Positions 2,009 through 13,376 of a stretch of 64,000 nucleotides of DNA are shown here, one piece after another. The DNA is from Enterobacter ludwigii. Lineage in GTDB: Bacteria; Pseudomonadota; Gammaproteobacteria; Enterobacterales; Enterobacteriaceae. The first letter of the stretch is position 1; every line of letters begins with the position of its first letter. The notes under the pieces are model-generated. The model was not told the origin of the DNA. It ran no database searches and saw only the letters and a program-made list of their open reading frames with translations. Made by a program: the position numbers and the translations under genes. Location: positions 372,001 to 436,000 of the forward strand of contig CEFQ01000005.1 in NCBI GenBank assembly GCA_900068845.1. Reading direction: 5' to 3'.

Positions 2009-3229
2009 TTACGCCTTCAGGGTCGCGGCAACCGCCAGCACCGCTTGGGCAATTTCCAGCACGCGTTTATTTTGATTCATGGCGCTTTTACGCAGAGCTT
2101 GCCAGGCATCTTGTTCACTGAATCCATGCTGCTGCATTAGCCAGCTTTTGGCCTGATCGATGATTTTGCGCTCATCCAATGAAGCACGCATGCTGGCCAA
2201 TTCATCGGCCTGTAGCTGTAAACGCTGCGACTGTTCGCCAATCAGCGTTAATACTGAGCGACCAAGCTGAGGTGCAAGACCATTGCTGTCTAGAGTGGTC
2301 TCAGCGCCTGACAGCCAGCTGGCTCCCGCAATATAGAGCGAGAACCTGGCCTCTTCAGCGATGGCAACCGGTGGATGATCGCTGTGCTGGGTGGCGGCAA
2401 GCGCGCGATGGCAACAGCGCATCAGTGCGGCACAGAGCGCATCTTCGATTTGCTTCATCTGATCGAGCCGCGTGCTAAGCAGCGTAAACCATTGCAACAC
2501 GCCATTTTCGCCACACTGCGCTCCGGTGCAGGCGATGCGTCGCAGCCGCTCAATTTGGCTGCCGGCATCGGCCATCGCGCGCCAGCGCTGCAGATTCTCT
2601 GCATCAGCAAATTGACTGAAGGTGGCAAAACTCTGCTCCTGCGCATCAATCAGCACCTGGATCCGCTGACGCTGCGCCTCAGTAAATGCACCGGCGGCAT
2701 AGCCGGCCGAACCTGTGGCGCGCTCCTGCCCCGCCAACTCTTTGCCCTGCATAAAACTGAACAACGCAATCAAGGCGCGTGAAATGTCCGGCTCACTGGC
2801 GGTATCCGCCGCTTCGAATACCAGGTTAAGTAACGTGCAGATGATGTGATTAAAGCCATCCATCGCCTGCGCCTGGGTCACGCTGCGGCTTTGTACTTGC
2901 TGACGCAACACCGGAAGACCGTCCAGAGCCTGCAGCGCGGTGGCAATGAGCATGCAGAAACGGCTGTAACCTGGCTGTGCCACCGCTTCAGGCAGCGCAG
3001 CCATGGCACGACGCTCCTGCAGAGCCACCTCCACCGCGCGCTGCGCGAGTTCTTCACCAAAAAGCCGACCTGCGGAGCACAGCCAGATATTGCTGGCACC
3101 ACGTTCACGCTGCAGCACATGGATCAATTCACTAATGGCAGTGATTTGCTCGCCGGTGCTTAGCAGCCGCTGCAAACTGGCAATCTCGCTGGCTCGGCTG
3201 GCACGCAGGTACTTCAAAGCCCGATTCAT
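2009..3229 (-). CDS. nasR: Nitrate-responsive antiterminator NasR (NIT and ANTAR domains)
   Basis: RNA-binding positive regulator of nitrate assimilation. The long N-terminal helical part (about residues 35-310, with LQRERGASNIWL near its start) matches the NIT nitrate/nitrite-sensing domain. The last 60-70 residues (ERKIIDQAKSWLMQQHGFSE, then DAWQALRKSAM) are an ANTAR RNA-binding domain. Length (406 aa) is near that of Klebsiella NasR. The start ATG has a strong GCAGGAGAAAGCA ribosome-binding region. It is transcribed toward nasF and probably acts on the nas leader hairpins in between. Confidence 0.95.
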   Translation of the reverse strand: MNRALKYLRASRASEIASLQRLLSTGEQITAISELIHVLQRERGASNIWLCSAGRLFGEELAQRAVEVALQERRAMAALPEAVAQPGYSRFCMLIATALQALDGLPVLRQQVQSRSVTQAQAMDGFNHIICTLLNLVFEAADTASEPDISRALIALFSFMQGKELAGQERATGSAGYAAGAFTEAQRQRIQVLIDAQEQSFATFSQFADAENLQRWRAMADAGSQIERLRRIACTGAQCGENGVLQWFTLLSTRLDQMKQIEDALCAALMRCCHRALAATQHSDHPPVAIAEEARFSLYIAGASWLSGAETTLDSNGLAPQLGRSVLTLIGEQSQRLQLQADELASMRASLDERKIIDQAKSWLMQQHGFSEQDAWQALRKSAMNQNKRVLEIAQAVLAVAATLKA

Positions 3230-3713
3230 TGCTTTCTCCTGCTGATTACCGACGTAAACAATAAATTAAGCAAAAGCCATGCCGTGCTGGGCCTGAAATG
3301 GGCGGAATGTGGCCCGGAAATTCCGAAATTAATAAAATTGTTTCGCTGGGCAATCTTTTTTGTTTCACATAAATAGATTAATCTTATTTACCATTTTCGT
3401 TTGGCACTAACAGTGATTAAATGCCTTTGCGCACCCGCGCTTTGCTAACGGCAACAAATAAATAAAATAAGCTTATCTATCACCGTGACTATGTGTTTTA
3501 TATCATCGGCCTGCGCTGCTTTTTCGCCCGCTAGCACGGGATTTCTCATGGCGCAATGGTTTGAATTCTCAAAAGTCTTAGGTAGACTTAGTTCAGCACT
3601 ATCTTTCTGTAATCTGTCTGTTTTTTTGATGGCTTTCTCGCTGCCTAATCTGCCCGCCTTAAAGGCTCGTGCCGCAGATTACTCTGCAGCTAATCTGATG
3701 AAATTTGAGGATC
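3230..3713. other. Intergenic region between nasR and the T6SS-like operon
   Basis: Divergent promoter region of 484 bases, AT-rich around 3330-3480. It should hold the nasR promoter (minus) and that of the lipoprotein-tssL operon (plus). A short palindrome, CGGAAATTCCG, lies near 3317-3327. I see no convincing gene. An open frame of 79 codons at 3485-3724 has no ribosome-binding site and overlaps the next gene. Confidence 0.5.
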
Positions 3714-4208
3714 ATGGTGAATAAGAGTCTCGTGCTTGTGTTGCTGGCGGTATTAAGTTTGGCTGCTTGTAAAGCGCCACCGCCACCCGTTACTGATGAC
3801 ACGCTGGTAACCAGTGAAGTGAATGGCGTCCAACTGGTTCATCGTCATGCGGTGGCAGCACCTGGCGAATTCACGCCGGTCAATGAGAGTTATCGCGCGC
3901 TGTATGCAGCCTCTGTGATGACCACGCCTGATTATGGCGGCAAGGTGGTACGCTATCTTGATAACGCCAAACCGTTTGAAGTGCTCGGCCGTGTTGAACA
4001 CAGCTGGCTGGCGATAGCCGATGAGCCTAACGGCCCATTAATTGGCTACATTCCGCCAAAAGCCGGTGTGGAGAGCAGCCGTTATGACGCTACCCTTCGT
4101 AGCGATCGTCCGCGCCCCCGCCGCAATAGCAAACAGGTCTGCGTGGCCGTTGGAGGCGCCAGTAAAGCTTGTCGCACTAACGATACCGCGACCTGGATTT
4201 TAGACTGA
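3714..4208 (+). CDS. SH3-type lipoprotein at the head of the T6SS-like operon
   Basis: Predicted outer-membrane or periplasmic lipoprotein. A signal peptide with lipobox LAAC-K is followed by a Pro-rich linker and a globular part (about residues 55-120: YRALYAAS, VVRYLDNAKPFEVLGR, SWLAIADEPNGPLIGYI) resembling a bacterial SH3 domain. Two cysteines lie near the C-terminus. The start is ATG at 3714 or GTG at 3717, just after GAGG; an upstream TTG at 3705 is less likely. It precedes tssL by 84 bases, where a TssJ lipoprotein often lies, but I see no TssJ similarity. It may take that role; this is inference. Confidence 0.8.
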   Translation: MVNKSLVLVLLAVLSLAACKAPPPPVTDDTLVTSEVNGVQLVHRHAVAAPGEFTPVNESYRALYAASVMTTPDYGGKVVRYLDNAKPFEVLGRVEHSWLAIADEPNGPLIGYIPPKAGVESSRYDATLRSDRPRPRRNSKQVCVAVGGASKACRTNDTATWILD

Positions 4209-4292
4209 TAATGCAATCCGGCGCACCGTGCCCGCAGAAAGTTTCGTTCTGCGGCCTGTGATTTTCGCCCTTGCCTGGATAACCAAGATTTA

Positions 4293-5507
4293 ATGACTCA
4301 GGATTCCCTTGCTCACGATGGCATTGTCGTGGGCAATGATAACCTTTTGCTTAATGCCGCAGCACCGATCCTGAATGCCGTGGTACGTATACGGCAGGCC
4401 GCGACGCATGACGATCCAGCCGGATTGCGCCAGTTACTCATCGAAGAGATCCGCCATTTCGAACAACGCTGTAAACAAGCGGGTTTAGCCTTTGAGATGA
4501 TTATTGGTGCGCGTTACTGCCTGTGCAGCGTACTGGATGAAGCTGCAGCGCAAACGCCGTGGGGCACGCGCGGTGTGTGGTCCGGTAACGGTATGTTGGT
4601 CACGTTTCATAATGAGAGCTGGGGCGGCGAAAAGGTCTTCCAGCTGTTATCACGCGTATCGCAAAGCCCGCAGCAGCATCTTTGGCTGCTGGAACTGATC
4701 CACTATTGTCTGTTGCTCGGTTACGAAGGTCGCTATCGCGGCAGTGACAGCGGTCGCGCGCAGTGCGAAGCCATCCGTAAACGTCTGGCGCAACTGATTG
4801 CCGAGCATCGCTCGCCGAGCGCCCACCCGGCGGTGCCACTGGTGGAAGTGCATCCGCTGGTCAGCACCTTAACGCGTCCAATGGTGCCGCTGTGGGCCTG
4901 CGTCACCTTAGCGACGCTGGTGGCGAGCCTGATTTACAGCGGCCTGAACTGGCGGCTCGGCAACGCTGCTGAACCGCTGTTACGCACCATTTACCAAACG
5001 CCATTGCCACAGATCACCCCCGGACGTCGTCCCACCTCACCCCAGGCGCTGCTCGATTTACATCAACGCCTGAATGATGTGATTGCCGCCGGACAGCTGG
5101 AAGTGAGCGACGGCGCGTTCGGCAGTAAAGTGATCATCCCCGCTGATAAACTGTTCTCCAGCGACGGTACCGTCGTCAATCAGGTGGGCCGCGCGCTGCT
5201 GACGCATGTGGCCAGCGCGATGAAAACCGTCAAAGGCACGGTGCTGGTGTCGGTGTATACCGATAACAGCCCGGTCGATGGCCGTTTCGCCTCCAGCTAC
5301 GAATTCTCCTTTGCCCGCGCACGCGCCATCACGCAGCTGCTTAATCCGCAGCTCGCCGAAGGCCACAGCGTGAAAGCGGAAGGTCGCGGCGACAGCAATC
5401 CGCTGCTGCCGAATGACAGTAATGAAAACCGCGCCCGCAACCGTCGGGTGGAAATCACCCTGTTTGTGACACCGGAAACCCTCGGCAATCATCAGGGAGG
5501 CCAATGA
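4293..5507 (+). CDS. tssL: T6SS membrane-complex protein TssL (IcmH/DotU with OmpA-like domain)
   Basis: Inner-membrane anchor of type VI secretion, 404 aa. Residues 1-190 form the cytoplasmic DotU/IcmH domain (RYCLCSVLDEAAAQTPWG and FHNESWGGEKVFQLL are family signatures). A single membrane segment lies at about 197-219. Residues 270-395 are an OmpA-like peptidoglycan-binding domain with the expected NRARNRRVEITL motif. It appears complete, of the 'evolved' TssL type. It overlaps tssM by 4 bases (ATGA), so the two are translationally coupled. No tssK lies upstream, unlike in most T6SS clusters. Confidence 0.93.
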   Translation: MTQDSLAHDGIVVGNDNLLLNAAAPILNAVVRIRQAATHDDPAGLRQLLIEEIRHFEQRCKQAGLAFEMIIGARYCLCSVLDEAAAQTPWGTRGVWSGNGMLVTFHNESWGGEKVFQLLSRVSQSPQQHLWLLELIHYCLLLGYEGRYRGSDSGRAQCEAIRKRLAQLIAEHRSPSAHPAVPLVEVHPLVSTLTRPMVPLWACVTLATLVASLIYSGLNWRLGNAAEPLLRTIYQTPLPQITPGRRPTSPQALLDLHQRLNDVIAAGQLEVSDGAFGSKVIIPADKLFSSDGTVVNQVGRALLTHVASAMKTVKGTVLVSVYTDNSPVDGRFASSYEFSFARARAITQLLNPQLAEGHSVKAEGRGDSNPLLPNDSNENRARNRRVEITLFVTPETLGNHQGGQ

Positions 5508-7621
5508 TGCGCGCATCACTGCAACATCTGTTAACCCACCGCTTGCTGTGGAGCCTGATTGGCGTCACGGCGTTGAGCTGCGTGCTGTGGATGCTCGGCC
5601 CCTTGTGGAGCTGGGGCGATACGCGCCCGCTTGAGCCCGTATTCCCGCGCCAGATCGCGGTCGGCCTGCTCTATTTCCTCTGGCTACTGTTCCAGTTTAT
5701 TCCGGCACTGTGGCGCGGTTGGTTTAACAGCAAACTGCTCAACCGCCTGCAGCAAATGAGCCAGGAAGAGTTGTCCGATCGTCAGGCCACCGAAACCCTG
5801 CTGGCCCAGCGCTTCAGTGAAGCGGCGCTGCGCCTGAAGCGCACCCAGTTTGGCCGCCGTCATCAGCAGAGCTGGCTGGCACGTTTTCAAAGCCATTACC
5901 TTTATCAATTACCCTGGTACGTCATGATTGGCGCGCCGGGAGCCGGTAAAACCACCGCGTTACTCAATGCTGGTCTGGAATTCCCGCTGACCGACAGTCT
6001 CGGCAAAGCGGCGATTCGCGGCGTTGGCGGCACGCGGCATTGCGACTGGTGGTTCACCGACAGCGCGGTACTGATTGATACGGCCGGGCGTTACGCCTTG
6101 CAGGAGAGTCAGCGCGCACGCGATGGCGCAGAGTGGCAGAGTTTTATCAATCTGCTGAAGCGCTATCGCACCCGCCAACCGATTAACGGCGTGATCATGA
6201 CCATCAGCGTCTCCGATCTGTTAACTGATTCGGCAGAGGCGCGCCATGCGCAGGCCAGCGCCCTGCGTGAGCGCATGGCGGAGCTGCATCAGCACACCGG
6301 CATTCACTTCCCTGTTTATGTGATGGTGACAAAAACCGATCTGCTGAAAGGTTTTATGAGTTTCTACGGCACCCTAAGCAAGCCGCAGCGCGATGCGATT
6401 TGGGGCTTTACCTTCCCGTGGGAACCGGGCAAACCGCATAAAGATGACTGGCATCGCAGCTTCAGTCAGCAGTATCAGCACTTAGAGCAGCGGTTGCAGC
6501 AGCAGTTGGCCGACGTGATGGCAGGCGAGCGCGATCTTACCCAGCGCGCCGATTGTTTCTTGTTCCCGCAAGAGTTCAGCTCGCTGCGCCCGTTGTTGAA
6601 TGAGTATCTCGACGTGGTGTTCTCGAGCCATCAGGATCCGATTGCCTGGTCGGCGCGCGGTCTGTTCTTCACCAGCGGCACCCAGGAAGGGTTGCCGTTT
6701 GACCGCATCATGGGTGAGCTGAACCGCAAATTGCAGCTGCCGCATACCGGCGAGAGCAGCCTGGCGGCGTGGGATAGCGTCAATCGCAGCAGCCCAATCC
6801 CTGGCAACAAAGGGCAGAGCTACTTTATCCGCGATTTGCTGAGCGATCTGGTGTTCCGCGAAAGCGGCCTGGCGGGCAGCAATCGCCATTGGGAATATCG
6901 CAACCGTCTGTTCCACTGGATTGGTTATGGCGTGCTGACCGGTGCGCTGCTGCTGCTCTCCTGTTTGTGGCTCACCAGCTATATTCAGAACCAGCGTTAT
7001 CTGGACCAGGTTGCAGAGCGCATCGGGCCGATCACCACGCAAAGCCAGCAGGTGACCCATCAGCCCGCCGATAATATTTTTGATCTGCTACCCTTCTTAA
7101 ATAACCTGGTGAAACTGCCGCTCTCCGAGCGTTTTTCCCTCGACAATCCTCCGCTTACCATGCGCGTTGGCTTGTATCGCGGCACCCAGGTCAGCGATGC
7201 GGCGTGGGCGCTTTATCAAAATGCGCTTAAGTCTTTACTGTTACCGCGGGTGGCTCAGCAGATCACTAACTTGCTGCGTGACGATCCGGGCACCGATAAC
7301 GACTACAGCCGCAATGCGCTGCGTGCCTATCAGATGCTGTATCAGCCGCGCAATTATGACGGCGAGTTTCTGCGTGGCTGGCTGATGCAAAACCTGCAGC
7401 GCACGCTGCCAAGTGATGTCAGCGCGCGCGATTTGCAGCAGCTCGACTGGCATCTGAGCCAGCTGTTGGATCAGCAAATTCAATCTTCACCGTATGCGCG
7501 TGACAACGCGTTAATGATGCGCAAGCTGGCGGAGAATCTGAAAAATGCCGGTGACAGCAGCAACACGCTGGCGATTACGCCGCATGTCGTTTCGCAGCGA
7601 TTGACCAGACACAGTGAGTAA
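5504..7621 (+). CDS. tssM: Short TssM/IcmF, lacking most of the periplasmic domain
   Basis: T6SS inner-membrane NTPase-like protein. Membrane segments lie at about residues 14-36, 50-70 and 472-494. Walker A GAPGAGKTT is at 143-151, followed by DTAGRY and TKTD motifs. Typical TssM proteins are about 1,100-1,200 residues, with some 700 in the periplasm. This one is 705 and stops about 210 residues after the third membrane segment, so the TssJ-binding C-terminal domain is absent. The stop is clean, tagF follows at once, and no leftover C-terminal fragment follows. The gene is therefore either naturally short or an old deletion. Confidence 0.9.
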   Translation: MMRASLQHLLTHRLLWSLIGVTALSCVLWMLGPLWSWGDTRPLEPVFPRQIAVGLLYFLWLLFQFIPALWRGWFNSKLLNRLQQMSQEELSDRQATETLLAQRFSEAALRLKRTQFGRRHQQSWLARFQSHYLYQLPWYVMIGAPGAGKTTALLNAGLEFPLTDSLGKAAIRGVGGTRHCDWWFTDSAVLIDTAGRYALQESQRARDGAEWQSFINLLKRYRTRQPINGVIMTISVSDLLTDSAEARHAQASALRERMAELHQHTGIHFPVYVMVTKTDLLKGFMSFYGTLSKPQRDAIWGFTFPWEPGKPHKDDWHRSFSQQYQHLEQRLQQQLADVMAGERDLTQRADCFLFPQEFSSLRPLLNEYLDVVFSSHQDPIAWSARGLFFTSGTQEGLPFDRIMGELNRKLQLPHTGESSLAAWDSVNRSSPIPGNKGQSYFIRDLLSDLVFRESGLAGSNRHWEYRNRLFHWIGYGVLTGALLLLSCLWLTSYIQNQRYLDQVAERIGPITTQSQQVTHQPADNIFDLLPFLNNLVKLPLSERFSLDNPPLTMRVGLYRGTQVSDAAWALYQNALKSLLLPRVAQQITNLLRDDPGTDNDYSRNALRAYQMLYQPRNYDGEFLRGWLMQNLQRTLPSDVSARDLQQLDWHLSQLLDQQIQSSPYARDNALMMRKLAENLKNAGDSSNTLAITPHVVSQRLTRHSE

Positions 7622-7634
7622 TGGTGAGGTAACG

Positions 7635-8333
7635 ATGCCGACACACACTGCGCCAGGCTGGTACGGAAAGTTACCGGCCACCGGCGATTTTTTGCGCCAG
7701 CGTCTAAGCGAGAATACCGTGACGCCCTGGAGCCACTGGTTTCAACAAGGATTGATGCACTGGCATCAGCAGCCGGATGCCAGCACCGCACAGTTTCTGC
7801 GCGCGCCCGTGTGGAATTTTGTGTTGCCGCTTTCGCCACTGCGTCAGCAGGTGCAGATGGGCTGCCTGCTGCCGTCCAGCGATCGCGTTGGACGCACCTG
7901 GCCGCTGTTGGCGCTGCGCAGCTTTCCGCTGAGCAACTGGCACAGCGCACAGCTGGCGATGTCCGGCGATTGGTTCCAGGAGCTCGGCGCGCTGTTACTG
8001 CACGCGGTACGCGATCGGCTCAGCCCCGATGCGCTGGAGCAGCAGATGCAGCGCTTGTCGCCGTTGCTGGTGCCGGACACGCAGCGAAGTGACATCATGG
8101 ATGTCATTGGTTTTGATGATTTGCCCTGCACGCTGAGCTGGCGTGAAGTGGCCGATAAGTTCGATCCGCAGCAGCACATGAGCTACTGGTGGAGTAATCG
8201 CAGTGACGGTTTTAGCCATGCCACCCATAAACACAGTGGCCCGCTGACTGCGCAACTTTTTTCATTATTGTTTAACCCGGCGTCAGGTGCACAGCCGGGC
8301 CGCAACGGCCTCTATCCACCGATGTTTGAATAG
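7635..8333 (+). CDS. tagF: T6SS-associated protein TagF (ImpM family)
   Basis: The N-terminal motif WYGKLPATGDFLRQRLS is the TagF/ImpM signature. In Pseudomonas aeruginosa TagF is a post-translational repressor that works alongside the PpkA-PppA-Fha switch; that is family knowledge. Start ATG at 7635 follows GGTGAGG at good distance. An ATG at 7614 overlapping the tssM stop is possible and would add seven residues. The short length (232 aa) fits a stand-alone TagF without fused PppA, which is encoded separately two genes downstream. Confidence 0.9.
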   Translation: MPTHTAPGWYGKLPATGDFLRQRLSENTVTPWSHWFQQGLMHWHQQPDASTAQFLRAPVWNFVLPLSPLRQQVQMGCLLPSSDRVGRTWPLLALRSFPLSNWHSAQLAMSGDWFQELGALLLHAVRDRLSPDALEQQMQRLSPLLVPDTQRSDIMDVIGFDDLPCTLSWREVADKFDPQQHMSYWWSNRSDGFSHATHKHSGPLTAQLFSLLFNPASGAQPGRNGLYPPMFE

Positions 8334-8366
8334 GCCGTGGCGATTGCCTTGTTAACGGGATGACTC

Positions 8367-9479
8367 ATGCAATTTACCATTGTGCAGTGCAATACGGATG
8401 TGCCCGCCAAGACGGTCGCCTTCAAACCGCCCGGCGGTACCATCGGCCGCAGTCAGGATAACGATCTGGTGCTGCCCGACGAATCGCGCGCCATATCGCG
8501 TCTGCAGGCGCTGGTGCACCTTTCGCCAGAAGGCGAGTGCCGCCTGACCAATCAGGGCAGCGTGACGTCGGTGGTTCTGAACGGCGTAGCGTTGCAACGC
8601 GGTTCTCAAGTGGCGTTGCAGGATGGCGACACGTTACAAATTGGTGAGTACGGGCTCGAAGTGCGCGATCCTAATACCCTCAAAACTCAGCAGGACGACC
8701 CGCTGGCGTTCTTTGCCGACAGCAGTGACGATCCGCTCGGCATGCTGCAGGAACCCGAAATTATTCCCGAGCCAATAGCACGTCAGGAACGCCGCAACGA
8801 TCCGCGTCTGGCCATTGACCCGCAAAGCGACGTGCCGACGCGGCCTGCCTTGTTGCCCGGTGCCGATCAGGACAAACTGATCGCCGCGTTGCTGGAAGGC
8901 ATGGGGCTGAATAACGGCCATCAAACCACCATCACAGAAGAACAGATGCGCGTGACCGGACGTATGCTGAGCCTGTTTTCGCAAGGCACCGTCGCCCTGC
9001 TCTCCTCGCGCTCGATCCTCAAGCGCGGCGTGAAAGCCGATATGACGATGATCCTCAATGAGGCGAATAACCCGTTCAAAATCCTGCCGTCCGGTAAAAC
9101 CGTGCTAATGCAGATGTATCAAAGCCAGATGCCCGGCTTTATGCCGCCGGAACCGGCGGTGCGCGATGCGCTGGTGGATTTACAAGCGCATCAGCTTGGC
9201 ATGATCGCCGGCATCCGCGCCATTATCGCCGCCATGCTGCAATCGTTTAGCCCACCGCGCCTGGAAGAAGAAGCCCGCAAAGATGGCGTGCTGCCAAAAA
9301 TGGGGTTCAGTACCGGACGCAAAGCGGCGCTGTGGGACTACTTCTCGCGCCACTATCAGCGCACCGCGGGCGAAATTGAAGATGACTTTCATACGCTGTT
9401 CGGTGAAGCCTTCCTGCATGCCTATGATATGGAAGTGAATCAGTACAAAGACTCCCAGACGCGGACCGAAGACGCATGA
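8367..9479 (+). CDS. tagH: FHA-domain T6SS regulator (Fha/TagH, ImpI type)
   Basis: Cytoplasmic phosphothreonine-binding scaffold. The forkhead-associated domain spans about residues 20-95 (GGTIGRSQDNDLVLPDESRA, with the GR, S and N positions expected for phosphopeptide binding). A low-complexity linker follows. The C-terminal half (about 170-360: RGVKADMTMILNEANNPFKI, MPGFMPPEPAVRDAL) matches the type VI FHA C-terminal domain. The known partner is the kinase PpkA, present six kilobases or less downstream. It overlaps the phosphatase gene by 4 bases, indicating coupled translation. Confidence 0.92.
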   Translation: MQFTIVQCNTDVPAKTVAFKPPGGTIGRSQDNDLVLPDESRAISRLQALVHLSPEGECRLTNQGSVTSVVLNGVALQRGSQVALQDGDTLQIGEYGLEVRDPNTLKTQQDDPLAFFADSSDDPLGMLQEPEIIPEPIARQERRNDPRLAIDPQSDVPTRPALLPGADQDKLIAALLEGMGLNNGHQTTITEEQMRVTGRMLSLFSQGTVALLSSRSILKRGVKADMTMILNEANNPFKILPSGKTVLMQMYQSQMPGFMPPEPAVRDALVDLQAHQLGMIAGIRAIIAAMLQSFSPPRLEEEARKDGVLPKMGFSTGRKAALWDYFSRHYQRTAGEIEDDFHTLFGEAFLHAYDMEVNQYKDSQTRTEDA

Positions 9480-10252
9480 AGATGATGTTTGCCAGTCGCT
9501 GCCAGCAAGGCATGCGCGACGAAAATCAGGATCGCACCGGGGCCGAACTGGACGAGCGTAAAGCCTGTTTTCTGGTGTGTGATGGCGTGGCGGGTTTGCC
9601 TGGCGGGGATATCGCCGCGCAGCTGGTGCGCGATACGCTCCTGACGCAGTTGCAGCATAGCGATATTTTTACCCCGGAAAGCACGCGCGCCGCCATCGAA
9701 CACTGCCAGCAAGTGCTGATCGAGGCACAGGGAAACAATCCGAATTTTTCACGTATGAGCACCACCCTTGCCTCGCTGTTTATTGACCGTGAAAAACAGC
9801 TCGCATGGTGGGCGCACGCAGGTGACAGCCGGGTTTATCACTTCCGTCATGGGGTGCTAAATCAGGTCACGCGTGACCACAGTTTGGCCCAGCAGTTGCG
9901 AGAGGCGGGCTATGAAAATACCGGCATTAACAGTAATTTACTCTATAATGCGCTCGGTGTTGAGCCTGCACGTCCGGCGACCTTTAGCGAGGTGATTTCG
10001 CTGGCCGATGGCGATGCCTTTTTGGTTTGCAGCGATGGATTCTGGCTCAATCTCACCACCCACGAAATGGAACTTGCCCTGCGTATGGTGAATGCCTGCG
10101 AAGAGTGGCTAACTTTGATGGAACAAGCCGTTAACCGCAGTGTGAAAAGCGACAATCTCAGTGCTTTGGCAGTCTGGATTGGCGAACCGCAGGAAGCGAC
10201 GCTGCTTTACTCCCAGGCTGATGCGGCACGTTTTCTGCCGTCACGTTATTGA
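9476..10252 (+). CDS. pppA: PP2C-type Ser/Thr phosphatase of the T6SS switch
   Basis: PPM/PP2C-family phosphatase, 258 aa. The metal-binding motifs RDENQDR (residues about 14-20), CDGVAG, HAGDSRVY and CSDGFW are all present, so it should be active. In known systems PppA removes the phosphate that PpkA puts on Fha and so turns secretion off. The first motif has CDGVAGLPGG rather than the usual DGMGGH form, which is common in this T6SS branch. No membrane segment is seen. Confidence 0.92.
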   Translation: MKMMFASRCQQGMRDENQDRTGAELDERKACFLVCDGVAGLPGGDIAAQLVRDTLLTQLQHSDIFTPESTRAAIEHCQQVLIEAQGNNPNFSRMSTTLASLFIDREKQLAWWAHAGDSRVYHFRHGVLNQVTRDHSLAQQLREAGYENTGINSNLLYNALGVEPARPATFSEVISLADGDAFLVCSDGFWLNLTTHEMELALRMVNACEEWLTLMEQAVNRSVKSDNLSALAVWIGEPQEATLLYSQADAARFLPSRY

Positions 10253-10265
10253 TCCAAGGATCCTT

Positions 10266-11216
10266 ATGAAAGTGTGGTTGACGGGCTTTGCAACGCTGTT
10301 GCTGGCCTTAAATGCGCAGGCTGAAGATTATCGTGTGGTGTATTCACCGAGCCTGTCATTGGAAGTCTACATTGATGACGTGGCCAGTAAGGCGCCCAAC
10401 GACTGGTGTAAAGAGACGCTGCCGCTGCGTATCGTTTCGGGCAAAAGCACCGATTCCAGCATTCTGACCAGCTTTCTGCCGCGCGTCGGTACATTGCTGG
10501 CAAATCAGTGTGGCTTGCTGGATGAGTTGCCGTGGCAGATGACGAATAAAGACGGCAGCGTGCTGGCTAACGGCAGCGCAGCCAAATTACAAAACTGGCG
10601 CCCGATCGTCATCAATGATGCGACCGCCAGCGCCACCAGCAGCAATGCGGCGCCGCTCGATCTGTCGCGCCCGGCGGATAACACGCCGCTGCAACATTTT
10701 GCGCTGCCCGGCGGCTGTCATTTCCGCACCTGGTGGGACGACAAAGGCGAATCGCTGTTTATCCCGGATAATCCGAAGCAGCACTGCTCCACCGAAGGTT
10801 GGCTGGAAGGCCCAAGCGAAATGACGCTGATGAGCCAGGGTAAAACGCGTAATGTGGCGCTGAACTTTTATCAAGGCTACCCGATTGCAGATTTGAAACT
10901 CAGCGGTCCGCCGCTCGAAGTGGTCTCGGTCAATAACCAACGCATGATTGTTACGCGTCCGGATGCCGATGATAGCTGGTTAGTGCTGCCCTTTGATGCA
11001 CAACAGCATGTGTGGCGCTTCAGCGGCACACTCCTGATGAAGATGGACAAAACCGCCGATCAGGACAGCGATGCTCTGAAAAAGCGGGTTGAAACGTTAC
11101 GCGGCGTTTGGTCGCCGCAATTTATGCCACAGCAAAAAGTGACTGTGTTACTGATTGACACCCTGCATGCGGATCTCGCCGATCCGGCGATTGGTGCCTG
11201 GCGTAACATTAATTAA
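10266..11216 (+). CDS. Exported protein of unknown function in the T6SS-like operon
   Basis: A Sec signal peptide (MKVWLTGFATLLLALNAQA) precedes about 297 mature residues with a few cysteines (DWCKETL, NQCGLLDEL, GGCHFRTWWDD, KQHCSTEGW) that could form periplasmic disulfides. I do not recognise a named domain. The start is placed at 10266, 13 bases after pppA, behind CAAGGATCCTT; an in-frame upstream extension would overlap pppA. Its place between phosphatase and kinase suggests a periplasmic sensor or partner for the PpkA extracytoplasmic domain. That role is inferred from position alone. Confidence 0.75.
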   Translation: MKVWLTGFATLLLALNAQAEDYRVVYSPSLSLEVYIDDVASKAPNDWCKETLPLRIVSGKSTDSSILTSFLPRVGTLLANQCGLLDELPWQMTNKDGSVLANGSAAKLQNWRPIVINDATASATSSNAAPLDLSRPADNTPLQHFALPGGCHFRTWWDDKGESLFIPDNPKQHCSTEGWLEGPSEMTLMSQGKTRNVALNFYQGYPIADLKLSGPPLEVVSVNNQRMIVTRPDADDSWLVLPFDAQQHVWRFSGTLLMKMDKTADQDSDALKKRVETLRGVWSPQFMPQQKVTVLLIDTLHADLADPAIGAWRNIN

Positions 11217-11233
11217 TTAGCGGTCGTTGCCTG

Positions 11234-11251
11234 CCGTCATCGTGATGACGG
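11234..11251. promoter_or_regulatory. Perfect small hairpin before the kinase gene
   Basis: CCGTCATCGTGATGACGG forms an 8-bp stem with a 2-base turn in the 66-base gap before ppkA. No T-run follows, so it is not an intrinsic terminator. It could stabilise a processed mRNA end or be a protein-binding site. Confidence 0.45.
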
Positions 11252-11282
11252 GGCGCTACAGGACGTGTTCAGAGAGTTCACT

Positions 11283-12698
11283 ATGTCGGCAAACGAAAAC
11301 CATACACCTAACGCCCTCCCTGCGGGCTACCGGTTTAATGAATTTGAAATCAAGGAAGTGATTGGCGGCGGCGGCTTCGGCATTGTTTATCGTGCCTGGG
11401 ATCATCAGCTGGAACGCACCATCGCCATCAAAGAGTACATGCCGGTTTCGCTGGCGGTGCGTGCGGCAGATATGTCGCTGGAACTGCGCGGTGAGCGTTT
11501 CCATAAGCTGTTCACCGCCGGTCGCAACAGTTTTATTCAAGAGGCGCGCCTGCTGGCACGCTTTAATCATCCCGGCCTGCTGCACGTCTTGCGCTTCTGG
11601 GAAGAGAACGGCACCGCCTACATGGGGACGCTCTATTACAGCGGCATGACGTTGAAAGAGTGGCAGATCACCAGTCCGAACAGCATTGATGAAAGCTGGA
11701 TTCGGCGTCTGCTGCCGCCACTGTTTGGTGCCATTGATACCATTCACGCCGCCGGTTATCTGCATCGTGATATCTCACTGGATAACATTCAGATTCAAGA
11801 AAACCAGCTGCCGGTGCTGCTCGATTTTGGTTCTGCGCGCAAAGAGATCGGTAACCTCTCTGATGAAACCGAGATCATGCTTAAACCCGGCTTTGCGCCG
11901 ATTGAGCAATACAGCGAAGAGGGTGAAATCGAGCAAGGTCCGTGGACCGATATCTATGCGCTGGGTGCGGTGCTGCACAACCTGATCACCGGCCACGCAC
12001 CGCCGGTGAGCGTGGTGCGCTGTATCGAAGATAACTATCAGCCGCTGGTGGAGCGCAAGCCGGAAGGCTATTCGCTGCCGCTGCTGAGCGCCATTGACTG
12101 CGCGTTAGCGATGAAGCCCGCCGATCGTCCGCAAAGTATTGATGCCTTCGCCAGCTTGATTGATCTGCCGGTGAGCGATGTTGAAGCACTCTCAACCACC
12201 CTTCCGGTGGTGGCAGAACCTGCTTTAGCGGCGGAACCGATCACCACTACGCCGGAACCGCAGATTTTAGCGGTGAACCATGGCGCCGCCGCGGTTGAAC
12301 CCTTGACGCCGCGCAACGTGCGTCGCTTGTCGCCAGGTTTAGTGGCAGCCGCCGCGATTGCCGTTTTGGCGGTTGTGGTAGTGGTATGGAAAGCGAATCG
12401 TCACAGCGAAGTGCCGCCGGTGGCTGCGAGCACCACGCCAGCCGCGCCGGCTGCGCAAAGTAGTAATGCCGTGAGCAGCGCACCCACGGTAGCGACAGTT
12501 TATCTGCGTTTGCAGGCGGGTGAGAATGTGATGCTGAATGGGGAAGCCCGGGATGTGAAGCCTTCCACCAGCGGGTTTGCCTCGCTGAATCTGGCGGCCG
12601 GTAATTATCGCATTGAGGTGCGTAACGGCAACCAGGTGCATAGCCAATCGCTGACCATTGATAAGCCGGGAACCTGGCTGATTAACCCGGGTCAGTAA
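11283..12698 (+). CDS. ppkA: Membrane Ser/Thr protein kinase of the T6SS switch
   Basis: Hanks-type kinase, 471 aa from the ATG at 11283. Residues 15-290 form the kinase domain: Gly loop GGGGFGIVY, ATP-binding Lys in IAIKEY, catalytic HRDISLDN and metal-binding DFGSAR are all intact. An Ala/Pro-rich linker leads to one membrane segment at about 351-371. A small periplasmic domain of about 75 residues follows a second Ala/Ser/Thr-rich linker (VYLRLQAGENVMLNGEA). The expected substrate is the FHA protein. It ends the operon, and chaC converges on it with only six bases between. Confidence 0.92.
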   Translation: MSANENHTPNALPAGYRFNEFEIKEVIGGGGFGIVYRAWDHQLERTIAIKEYMPVSLAVRAADMSLELRGERFHKLFTAGRNSFIQEARLLARFNHPGLLHVLRFWEENGTAYMGTLYYSGMTLKEWQITSPNSIDESWIRRLLPPLFGAIDTIHAAGYLHRDISLDNIQIQENQLPVLLDFGSARKEIGNLSDETEIMLKPGFAPIEQYSEEGEIEQGPWTDIYALGAVLHNLITGHAPPVSVVRCIEDNYQPLVERKPEGYSLPLLSAIDCALAMKPADRPQSIDAFASLIDLPVSDVEALSTTLPVVAEPALAAEPITTTPEPQILAVNHGAAAVEPLTPRNVRRLSPGLVAAAAIAVLAVVVVVWKANRHSEVPPVAASTTPAAPAAQSSNAVSSAPTVATVYLRLQAGENVMLNGEARDVKPSTSGFASLNLAAGNYRIEVRNGNQVHSQSLTIDKPGTWLINPGQ

Positions 12699-12704
12699 TC
12701 CACT

Positions 12705-13376
12705 TTAGCGCGCTGCCGCATGACTCTGCAGCGCTCTGACTTCTGCCGCGAGGCGCGTCAGCGCCGCTTCCTGCATCCCTCGTTTACCCAGTTCTTGCTC
12801 CAGCGCATACAGATACTGTGCGTTAGTGCCGAGCGGACCGCTGGCCTGAGCAATCAATGGCGCGATGGTGCTACGGCAGGAGTCGGTTTCATACAGCGGA
12901 TGACGCGGGTCCATGATGAACACCAGCGCGGTCACTTTGCGCCCATCCTCCAGCGCCAGTTCACACCAGGTCGGCAGATAGCAACCGGTGATCATCTCAC
13001 GCTTCCACAGCAGCTCCAGCTCATCATGCAAGCGCGATTCCGGTAACCGGAACGCCAGTCCGCTGGTTGAGCCGCCCTCTTTCAGCGCCAGCATACGGCC
13101 AGGTGCGGTAACGGTGCCGCGACCCGCAATCAGACGCAGGCAAAAGGCGCGGTGCCAGCCTTCTAATCGGCCTGGTGCCACTTCGGCCGCTTCAAAAATC
13201 GGATTCCACATCAGCGAACCATAGCCAAAGATCCATACCGGACTTTGATCAGGGCGGCAGGCAAGCGTCGCTGACAGGGATGCCGCGCGCTTTTCACAGC
13301 TCCAGAACAGCGCTTCATCAATGTCGCCAAACGATGTTTTACAATCTGCTTTTAATAAAAATTCCCGCGTTAACAC
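12705..13376 (-). CDS. chaC: Glutathione-specific gamma-glutamylcyclotransferase ChaC
   Basis: Cytosolic enzyme that splits glutathione into 5-oxoproline and Cys-Gly. The substrate-binding loop VWIFGYGSLMWNP lies near residues 46-58, and the family glutamate is probably in LWKREMITGCY. The 223-residue length is close to the E. coli protein. It lies with chaB and chaA as in E. coli, although chaB and chaC are here separated by 237 bases and may have separate promoters. Confidence 0.93.
   Translation of the reverse strand: MLTREFLLKADCKTSFGDIDEALFWSCEKRAASLSATLACRPDQSPVWIFGYGSLMWNPIFEAAEVAPGRLEGWHRAFCLRLIAGRGTVTAPGRMLALKEGGSTSGLAFRLPESRLHDELELLWKREMITGCYLPTWCELALEDGRKVTALVFIMDPRHPLYETDSCRSTIAPLIAQASGPLGTNAQYLYALEQELGKRGMQEAALTRLAAEVRALQSHAAAR

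Follow-up and report, generated by a model that had tools for sequence, protein, structure and literature searches.

The window analysed here, i.e., the whole stretch of 64,000 nucleotides from contig CEFQ01000005.1 of an assembly recorded as Enterobacter ludwigii (GCA_900068845.1), carries at positions 3714-12698 eight open reading frames (ORFs) in a fixed order, all on the + strand, whose products resemble membrane and threonine-phosphorylation components of a type VI secretion system (T6SS). The locus is already described; new here are the arguments for its being functional, the recognition of its RtkS-PpkA sensor pair, a promoter-like element, and intact carriers without TssC or TssF matches. 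A working envelope sensor is a more likely reading than a broken leftover. The following features were identified (E-values of hidden Markov model (HMM) searches after the family names):

3557..3592 (core 3563-3588), + strand: conserved promoter-like element ~125 bp upstream of tagV, with a possible -35 (TTGAAT) and -10 (TAGACT)
3714..4208, + strand: TagV-like lipoprotein of 164 amino acids (aa), NF041850 match; outer-membrane location suggested by Serratia TagV
4293..5507, + strand: TssL with a C-terminal OmpA-like peptidoglycan-binding domain, 404 aa (PF09850, PF00691)
5504..7621, + strand: short TssM, 705 aa (TIGR03348 positions 1-630 of 1168; truncation from the alignment)
7614 (GTG) or 7635 (ATG) to 8333, + strand: TagF (PF09867, 1.9e-36)
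8367..9479, + strand: FHA protein (TagH/Fha), 370 aa (PF00498, 6.5e-12; T6SS_FHA_C PF20232, 1.1e-47)
9476..10252, + strand: PppA, a PP2C-type phosphatase, 258 aa (PF13672, 1.9e-11)
10266..11216, + strand: RtkS, predicted exported periplasmic partner of PpkA with a signal peptide, 316 aa (match to solved RtkS)
11283..12698, + strand: PpkA, 471 aa, a Ser/Thr kinase whose C-terminal domain resembles the periplasmic domain that binds RtkS (PF00069, 8.2e-22)

The original prediction, made from the letters of the window, had listed this set from the lipoprotein to PpkA, and the ORFs confirm it in the same order with HMM scores far beyond chance. It had also stated that no sheath, tube or baseplate gene lies beside the module, which holds for the eight genes at 3714-12698: of the 13 core genes of a complete T6SS (TssA-M) only TssL and a truncated TssM are present, and TssK is not in the operon. 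A TssJLM complex was not recovered either, as TssM stops at model position 630 of 1168 and the operon has no TssJ. The gene overlaps that had been noted were found at two joints (4 bp each, TssL/TssM and FHA/PppA) and, only if TagF starts at the GTG, at a third (TssM/TagF), while at the remaining joints the genes lie 13 to 84 bp apart.

The comparisons support a signalling half that is intact down to the RtkS-PpkA pair. The exported 316-aa protein can be identified as RtkS, the periplasmic partner of PpkA: it is 40% identical to the solved RtkS, matches it in sequence and fold, and its gene sits just after fha and pppA, while PpkA is similar over residues 403-470 to the PpkA chain in 9k1u (E 2.4e-17). 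The N-terminal domain of RtkS (residues ~20-130, window 10323-10655) lies outside the part matched to the solved RtkS chains and gave no convincing fold match. The claim that kinase, phosphatase and FHA motifs are intact proved right across 43-47 sequences: K50, D163, N168, and D181 of PpkA (the kinase Lys, the HRD Asp, N168, and the DFG Asp) are invariant (n = 43), as are Asp 19, 36, 187, and 226 of PppA (n = 45), which we take to be its metal site, and G27, R28, S44, and N72 of the FHA protein (n = 47). The FHA domain (8367-9479) reads SRLQA, with the Gln kept in 47/47 sequences; the usual FHA motif is SRxHA.

In the membrane half, the TagV match to NF041850 extends over nearly the whole length (E 5.7e-60) and scores 201.7 bits, with the curated cut-off of 300 not reached; the 3714..4208 product is best regarded as a paralogue similar to TagV, not as a certified member of that family. 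Its lipobox Cys and its pocket Trp are each present in 45/45 orphan-locus sequences. TssL combines a DotU domain (PF09850, 1.1e-63) with an OmpA domain (PF00691, 3.2e-6), stays below the cut-off for the long form of TssL (TIGR03350, 103.3 bits vs. 139.8), and retains the OmpA-motif residues N379, R384, and R385 in 46/46 and R380 in 45/46 sequences. TssM has a clear IcmF N-terminal domain (1.5e-83), reaches 646 bits against TIGR03348 (cut-off 388) over model positions 1-630 only, and carries the P-loop GAPGAGKT in 48/48 sequences. It ends ~35 residues past the last block that it shares in the alignment with a 1207-aa T6SS-1 TssM, and thus does not have approximately the last 500 aa of the latter; its predicted topology would comprise N-terminal membrane helices, an NTPase-like domain, a third membrane helix, and a periplasmic stub. 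The motifs at the kinase, phosphatase, FHA, P-loop, lipobox, and peptidoglycan sites are read in their usual sense. The meaning of the TagV Trp comes from PMC7614798. According to PMC7614798, TssM reaches TssJ through its C-terminal domain, and Serratia TagV showed no interaction with TssL or TssM. The module shares with the TssJLM plus TagV complex of that study the peptidoglycan-binding domain of TssL, the NTPase part of TssM, and TagV, but differs in having no TssJ in the operon and a TssM without ~500 C-terminal residues. The suggestion that the complex spans the envelope was therefore not borne out, since the TssJ-binding part of TssM is missing, the operon encodes no TssJ, and TagV is the only outer-membrane part.

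The original prediction regarded the locus as an orphan and proposed looking for a second, complete T6SS in the genome. Such a system was found on two other contigs, with TssA, B, C, E, F, G, H, J, K, L, M, Hcp, and VgrG. Contig C12 (1-10550) carries VgrG (cut by the contig end), TssH, Hcp, an OmpA-like protein, TssL, TssK, TssC, and TssB, and contig C8 (24505-37949) carries a 1162-aa TssM, two TssA-like proteins, TssF, TssG, TssJ, and TssE. C12 starts inside vgrG, and the gene content suggests that C8 continues the C12 cluster. Two further ORFs on C8 (408 and 440 aa) had no NCBIfam family match. The resident TssM scores 235 bits against TIGR03348 (E 1.6e-69), i.e., under the curated 388, and both it and the resident TssL belong to another class than those of the module. 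Because this separate system has its own TssL, TssM, and TssJ, the module is an orphan in its own genome. When the module proteins were compared with the resident cluster in the stretches read (C12:1-40000 and C8:20001-40000, 60 kb), only TssL matched, weakly, in its OmpA part. No match to FHA, PppA, RtkS or PpkA was found in these 60 kb, a whole-genome search for a second FHA protein or kinase not having been made.

These data bear on the explanation that the T6SS of this genome is split, with the module serving as membrane complex and control unit for a sheath and tube cluster elsewhere. Searches with the TssM protein and with PF14331 each found only the short TssM in the genome, which spoke for such a split, as did the lack of kinase, phosphatase, and FHA genes in the resident stretches read. 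The PF14331 search, however, misses the resident TssM class, and it was the TssF search that led to the C8 half of the complete cluster with its 1162-aa TssM, upon which the split T6SS was rejected. The resident cluster has its own membrane genes, and the TssJ-binding portion of TssM in the known complex is absent from the short form, so that we give this explanation hardly any credence.

All eight genes are under purifying selection, as shown by the ratios of nonsynonymous to synonymous substitutions (dN/dS; Nei-Gojobori NG86 medians): TagV 0.087, TssL 0.110, TssM 0.138, TagF 0.153, FHA 0.156, PppA 0.138, RtkS 0.166, and PpkA 0.155, next to 0.071 for ChaA, 0.093 for ChaC, 0.111 for NrtA, 0.217 for NasR, and 0.030 for KdsA among the flanking genes. 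In four close genomes (those of the window, L007, L008, and L009), all without a match to a T6SS-1-type TssM, the values fall to 0.027-0.069. Within three genomes that carry both loci, the constraint on seven orphan genes (all but PpkA) is similar to that on their T6SS-1 paralogues, with the exception of PppA (0.07 in the orphan vs. 0.03 in T6SS-1); the FHA, PppA, and RtkS values of this comparison come from one orphan pair. Along TssM, the periplasmic stub (residues 501-672) is the most constrained of five regions (0.099, followed by the NTPase with 0.123, the third helix with 0.195, the N-terminal part with 0.238, and the tail with 0.405), and a stub that is the most guarded part of the protein is not expected of a chance leftover.

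In the phylogeny, the 49 short TssM rows form one clade (Shimodaira-Hasegawa-like approximate likelihood ratio test, SH-aLRT, 100) inside the enterobacterial TssM, which divides into Erwinia, Winslowiella, Mixta, and Pantoea and branches mostly by genus, with a few differently named rows (e.g., L014, L016, L033, L049) falling among Pantoea. The tree was made with a quick method and has some long branches, and the nearest relative of the clade is poorly supported. This single clade, branching by genus, and the fixed place before chaC fit one old origin before the split of Erwinia, Winslowiella, Mixta, and Pantoea, followed by vertical descent. Of the flanks given in the original prediction, the cha side stood, as chaC follows the operon in 45/50 loci and in the remaining five the contig stops first, while the nitrate side is variable, with a NasR match in 32/50 loci (window included). 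In the window, the left neighbour is a NasR-like regulator, named from its sequence (2009-3229, - strand), and the right neighbour is chaC (12705-13376, - strand).

The element upstream of tagV looks like a promoter whose spacer is also conserved. The sequence of the 26-bp core is the same in 29/50 orphan loci (window included), with ≤ 4 mismatches in 46/50 and ≤ 7 in 49/50, and a search of 5 T6SS-1 loci gave no match to it. A 22-base part of the core occurs as a single copy in the genome at ≤ 3 mismatches, with 0 chance matches expected in the window.

The idea, suggested in PMC3235180, that a duplicated T6SS-1 survives here as a remnant in slow decay was weighed against these results. In favour of decay are the truncated TssM and the missing core genes, the 6/50 loci with damage in at least one gene (L011, L027, L033, L034, L047, and L058), the reduced forms that the same paper reports from Erwinia amylovora, pyrifoliae, and tasmaniensis, and the absence of a knock-out phenotype in the account of PMC5603701. 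On the other hand, dN/dS medians of 0.09-0.17, comparable with those of the T6SS-1 paralogues, invariant active sites, a single origin before the genera split, and the conserved upstream element all argue against it, and so does the presence of the short TssM in 58/61 genomes of the genus, unbroken in 55/58, with three genomes of 2.9, 2.4, and 1.4 Mb as the only ones without it. A remnant is thus strongly disfavoured for Pantoea and improbable overall, and the earlier view that this is not simple decay gains support from the constraint, the catalytic residues, and the TssM stub. The locus is real, old, and under selection, and in most evolutionary tests it behaves like a working gene set. All eight genes are uninterrupted in 40 of the 50 loci (window included), a number that takes in three loci with a TagV match beginning at residue 16-18, and four are cut by contig ends (L014, L031, L032, and L060). 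The module is decayed at L033, L047, and L058: TssM is interrupted in Mixta mediterraneensis, and the other two are Ca. Pantoea haifensis and the Euschistus symbiont Eser, with several genes broken.

A TssM/TssL-like pair is also at work without a T6SS in the IcmF/DotU of type IVB secretion, so that such a pair can serve other machines. The module is distinct from this system (IcmF_IVB score 66.6 vs. a cut-off of 1000), its operon has no type IVB secretion gene, and its TssM branches with enterobacterial T6SS TssM. Its DotU-like protein passes IcmH_DotU_IVB (143.5 vs. 50), scores higher with the DotU/TssL model TIGR03349 (213, cut-off 90), and reaches 484 against a T6SS DotU family (cut-off 520).

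The doubt raised in the original prediction about the novelty of the locus was justified, as a partial T6SS-2 of eight syntenic genes has been in print since 2011 (De Maayer 2011, PMC3235180), where it is called "partial and potentially non-functional" and perhaps a partial duplication of T6SS-1. PA T6SS-3 of Shyntum 2014 (PMC3942780), which spans 9 kb and eight genes with icmF and dotU as the sole core genes, appears to be the same locus. According to PMC5603701, T6SS-2 is conserved throughout the 29 P. ananatis and P. stewartii strains compared, one of which, DC283, has no T6SS-1; that paper counts seven core proteins in the locus, more than found here. The module shares with the published T6SS-2 the eight syntenic genes (TssL/DotU, IcmF, FHA, kinase, and phosphatase among them), few of which belong to the T6SS core, the absence of sheath, tube, and baseplate genes, the presence of separate complete T6SSs, and a TssM lineage distinct from T6SS-1 (50-56% identity to it). 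The published account, in the portions available, gives no mechanism and considers the locus perhaps non-functional, whereas the constraint, the intact sites, RtkS, the promoter-like element, and the carriers without T6SS matches argue otherwise. In the literature searched, with subscription papers mostly outside reach, neither a function for the locus nor its test in a T6SS-free strain was found.

For the signalling genes, the closest known system is the threonine phosphorylation pathway of Serratia marcescens with TagF (PMC6082577), all components of which (RtkS, PpkA, FHA, PppA, and TagF) are present here. In Serratia, RtkS binds and stabilises the periplasmic domain of PpkA, PpkA and PppA act on FHA, and FHA relieves the hold of TagF on TssL/TssM. 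That pathway controls a firing T6SS, while the module has no firing parts encoded alongside. By analogy, RtkS would bind and stabilise the periplasmic domain of PpkA in the module, both halves of this contact being conserved, PpkA would phosphorylate FHA and PppA would reverse this, and FHA would release the TssL/TssM platform from TagF. The OmpA-like domain would tie TssL to peptidoglycan and TagV may tie the outer membrane to it, as judged from their motifs, and TssM would retain its NTPase site and a constrained periplasmic stub, having lost the C-terminal TssJ-binding part. Without this part, and without TssJ and TssK in the operon, the platform is not expected to extend to the outer membrane or to receive a baseplate. 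The output of the switch would be the assembly state of the inner-membrane platform, and its downstream effect may be a local envelope tether, a scaffold, or the recruitment of another machine. We tentatively favour, with confidence just short of an even chance, the explanation that the operon is a working cell-envelope phosphorylation switch derived from the checkpoint of a T6SS membrane complex, in a cluster without the machine. A little more doubtful, yet plausible, is the wider proposal that in Erwiniaceae it acts as a free-standing envelope-status switch, in which RtkS-PpkA senses a periplasmic signal and drives assembly of a TssL/TssM NTPase platform that is anchored to peptidoglycan and serves some end other than injection.

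The distribution of the locus relative to T6SS genes bears on how independent such a switch could be. TssC was found in 51/61 genomes of the genus, including two with only a truncated or split copy (G345, G400), so that the orphan locus occurs in more of them than this sheath gene does; 7 of the 10 genomes without TssC carry the orphan. A T6SS-1-type TssM (50-56% identity to the short TssM) was present in 32/61 by hand count, its N-terminal part lying in a separate frame in G375 and in one of two G376 copies, and was not found in this genome and 25 other orphan-carrying genomes of the genus. Among 48 named genomes with the orphan locus, 41 had TssC. A search for TssF in 14 of the 48 found none in six genomes, which have no TssC either: P. 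eucrina Russ, P. latae, the metagenome-assembled genome UBA2655, Mixta mediterraneensis, P. stewartii, and the stink-bug symbiont Eser. All eight genes are retained in P. eucrina Russ and P. latae, the UBA2655 locus is intact as far as its contig reaches, and the P. stewartii locus has no TagV ORF. P. conspicua has TssF and no TssC.

On the branches without TssC, the focal ratio of nonsynonymous to synonymous change ranged from 0.019 to 0.062, and 0/9 comparisons differed from the sister at p < 0.05. These counts use only codons where the sister equals the outgroup, and therefore compare branches and do not give absolute values. The ratios (focal vs. sister) were 0.021 vs. 0.021 for P. eucrina Russ (0.032 vs. 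0.013 with the other outgroup, L017), 0.062 vs. 0.069 for P. latae (0.061 vs. 0.048 with the other sister), 0.044 vs. 0.041 for P. stewartii, 0.054 vs. 0.031 for P. conspicua, 0.046 vs. 0.073 or 0.053 vs. 0.053 for M. mediterraneensis, and 0.019 vs. 0.066 (one gene) for Eser.

The serious rival to an independent switch is regulation of a real T6SS in trans, in which the FHA, TagF, PpkA/PppA or TssL/TssM of the module would act as regulator or decoy toward another, genuine T6SS of the same cell, e.g., through shared FHA phosphorylation or through mixed membrane complexes that restrain assembly. Most carriers do have some T6SS: a TssC match was found in 51/58 carriers of the genus and, in the wider family search, in all 15 genomes with a TssM frame of 705-751 aa (276-287 bits) among the matches listed, by hand count. 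Over-expression of TagF blocks the Serratia T6SS (PMC6082577), and for P. allii it has been proposed that two clusters might interact, with a predicted complete T6SS-II in two strains (PMC12873547, 2026). A broken TssM is also commoner in genomes without TssC (2/7 vs. 1/51, Fisher p 0.036), as would suit a locus that depends on a T6SS. Against regulation in trans stand the different class of the resident TssM and TssL, the lack of signalling matches in the 60 kb read, the 26 carriers in which no T6SS-1-type TssM was found, and the two genomes without TssC and TssF matches that keep an intact locus, with constraint not significantly changed. In addition, the deletion was reported to have no effect on antibiosis (PMC5603701). 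On this balance we regard such a role as unlikely, although clearly worth considering.

Several observations weigh against the working switch itself. The excess of broken TssM without TssC and the damaged loci count here as well, and E. amylovora CFBP 1430 has four genes only in the published description. Citing Shyntum 2015, PMC5603701 states that a T6SS-2 knock-out leaves virulence as well as antibiosis unchanged. The TagV and TssL proteins fall under some curated score cut-offs, and the structure model of TssM (predicted local distance difference test, pLDDT, 61) was too poor for use. With regard to selection, the focal ratio was somewhat above that of the sister in 4/9 comparisons, and P. 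eucrina Russ with outgroup L017 showed 15 vs. 6 nonsynonymous changes (p 0.069, the lowest of all), i.e., toward relaxation. Since the loss of the T6SS on the branches without TssC is undated and possibly recent, the constraint there is a weak test of independence.

If the module works without a T6SS, the TssL/TssM pair and the phosphorylation checkpoint would have a role of their own, and the T6SS-less carriers would offer a clean background in which to study RtkS sensing and FHA phosphorylation when no sheath can assemble.

Some side observations arose from the same searches. Among 295 genomes of the family, 168 had a TssC match and 132 a match to PF14331 (the IcmF N-terminal domain); as PF14331 misses the resident-type TssM class, T6SS counts based on IcmF alone would be too low. 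The genomes of L008 and L009 (G296 and G297) have a second, more distant TssF match (E ~1e-118) and one TssC match. Finally, a record named Enterobacter cancerogenus M004 (L014, L054) groups with Pantoea in the TssM tree, and its name is probably wrong.

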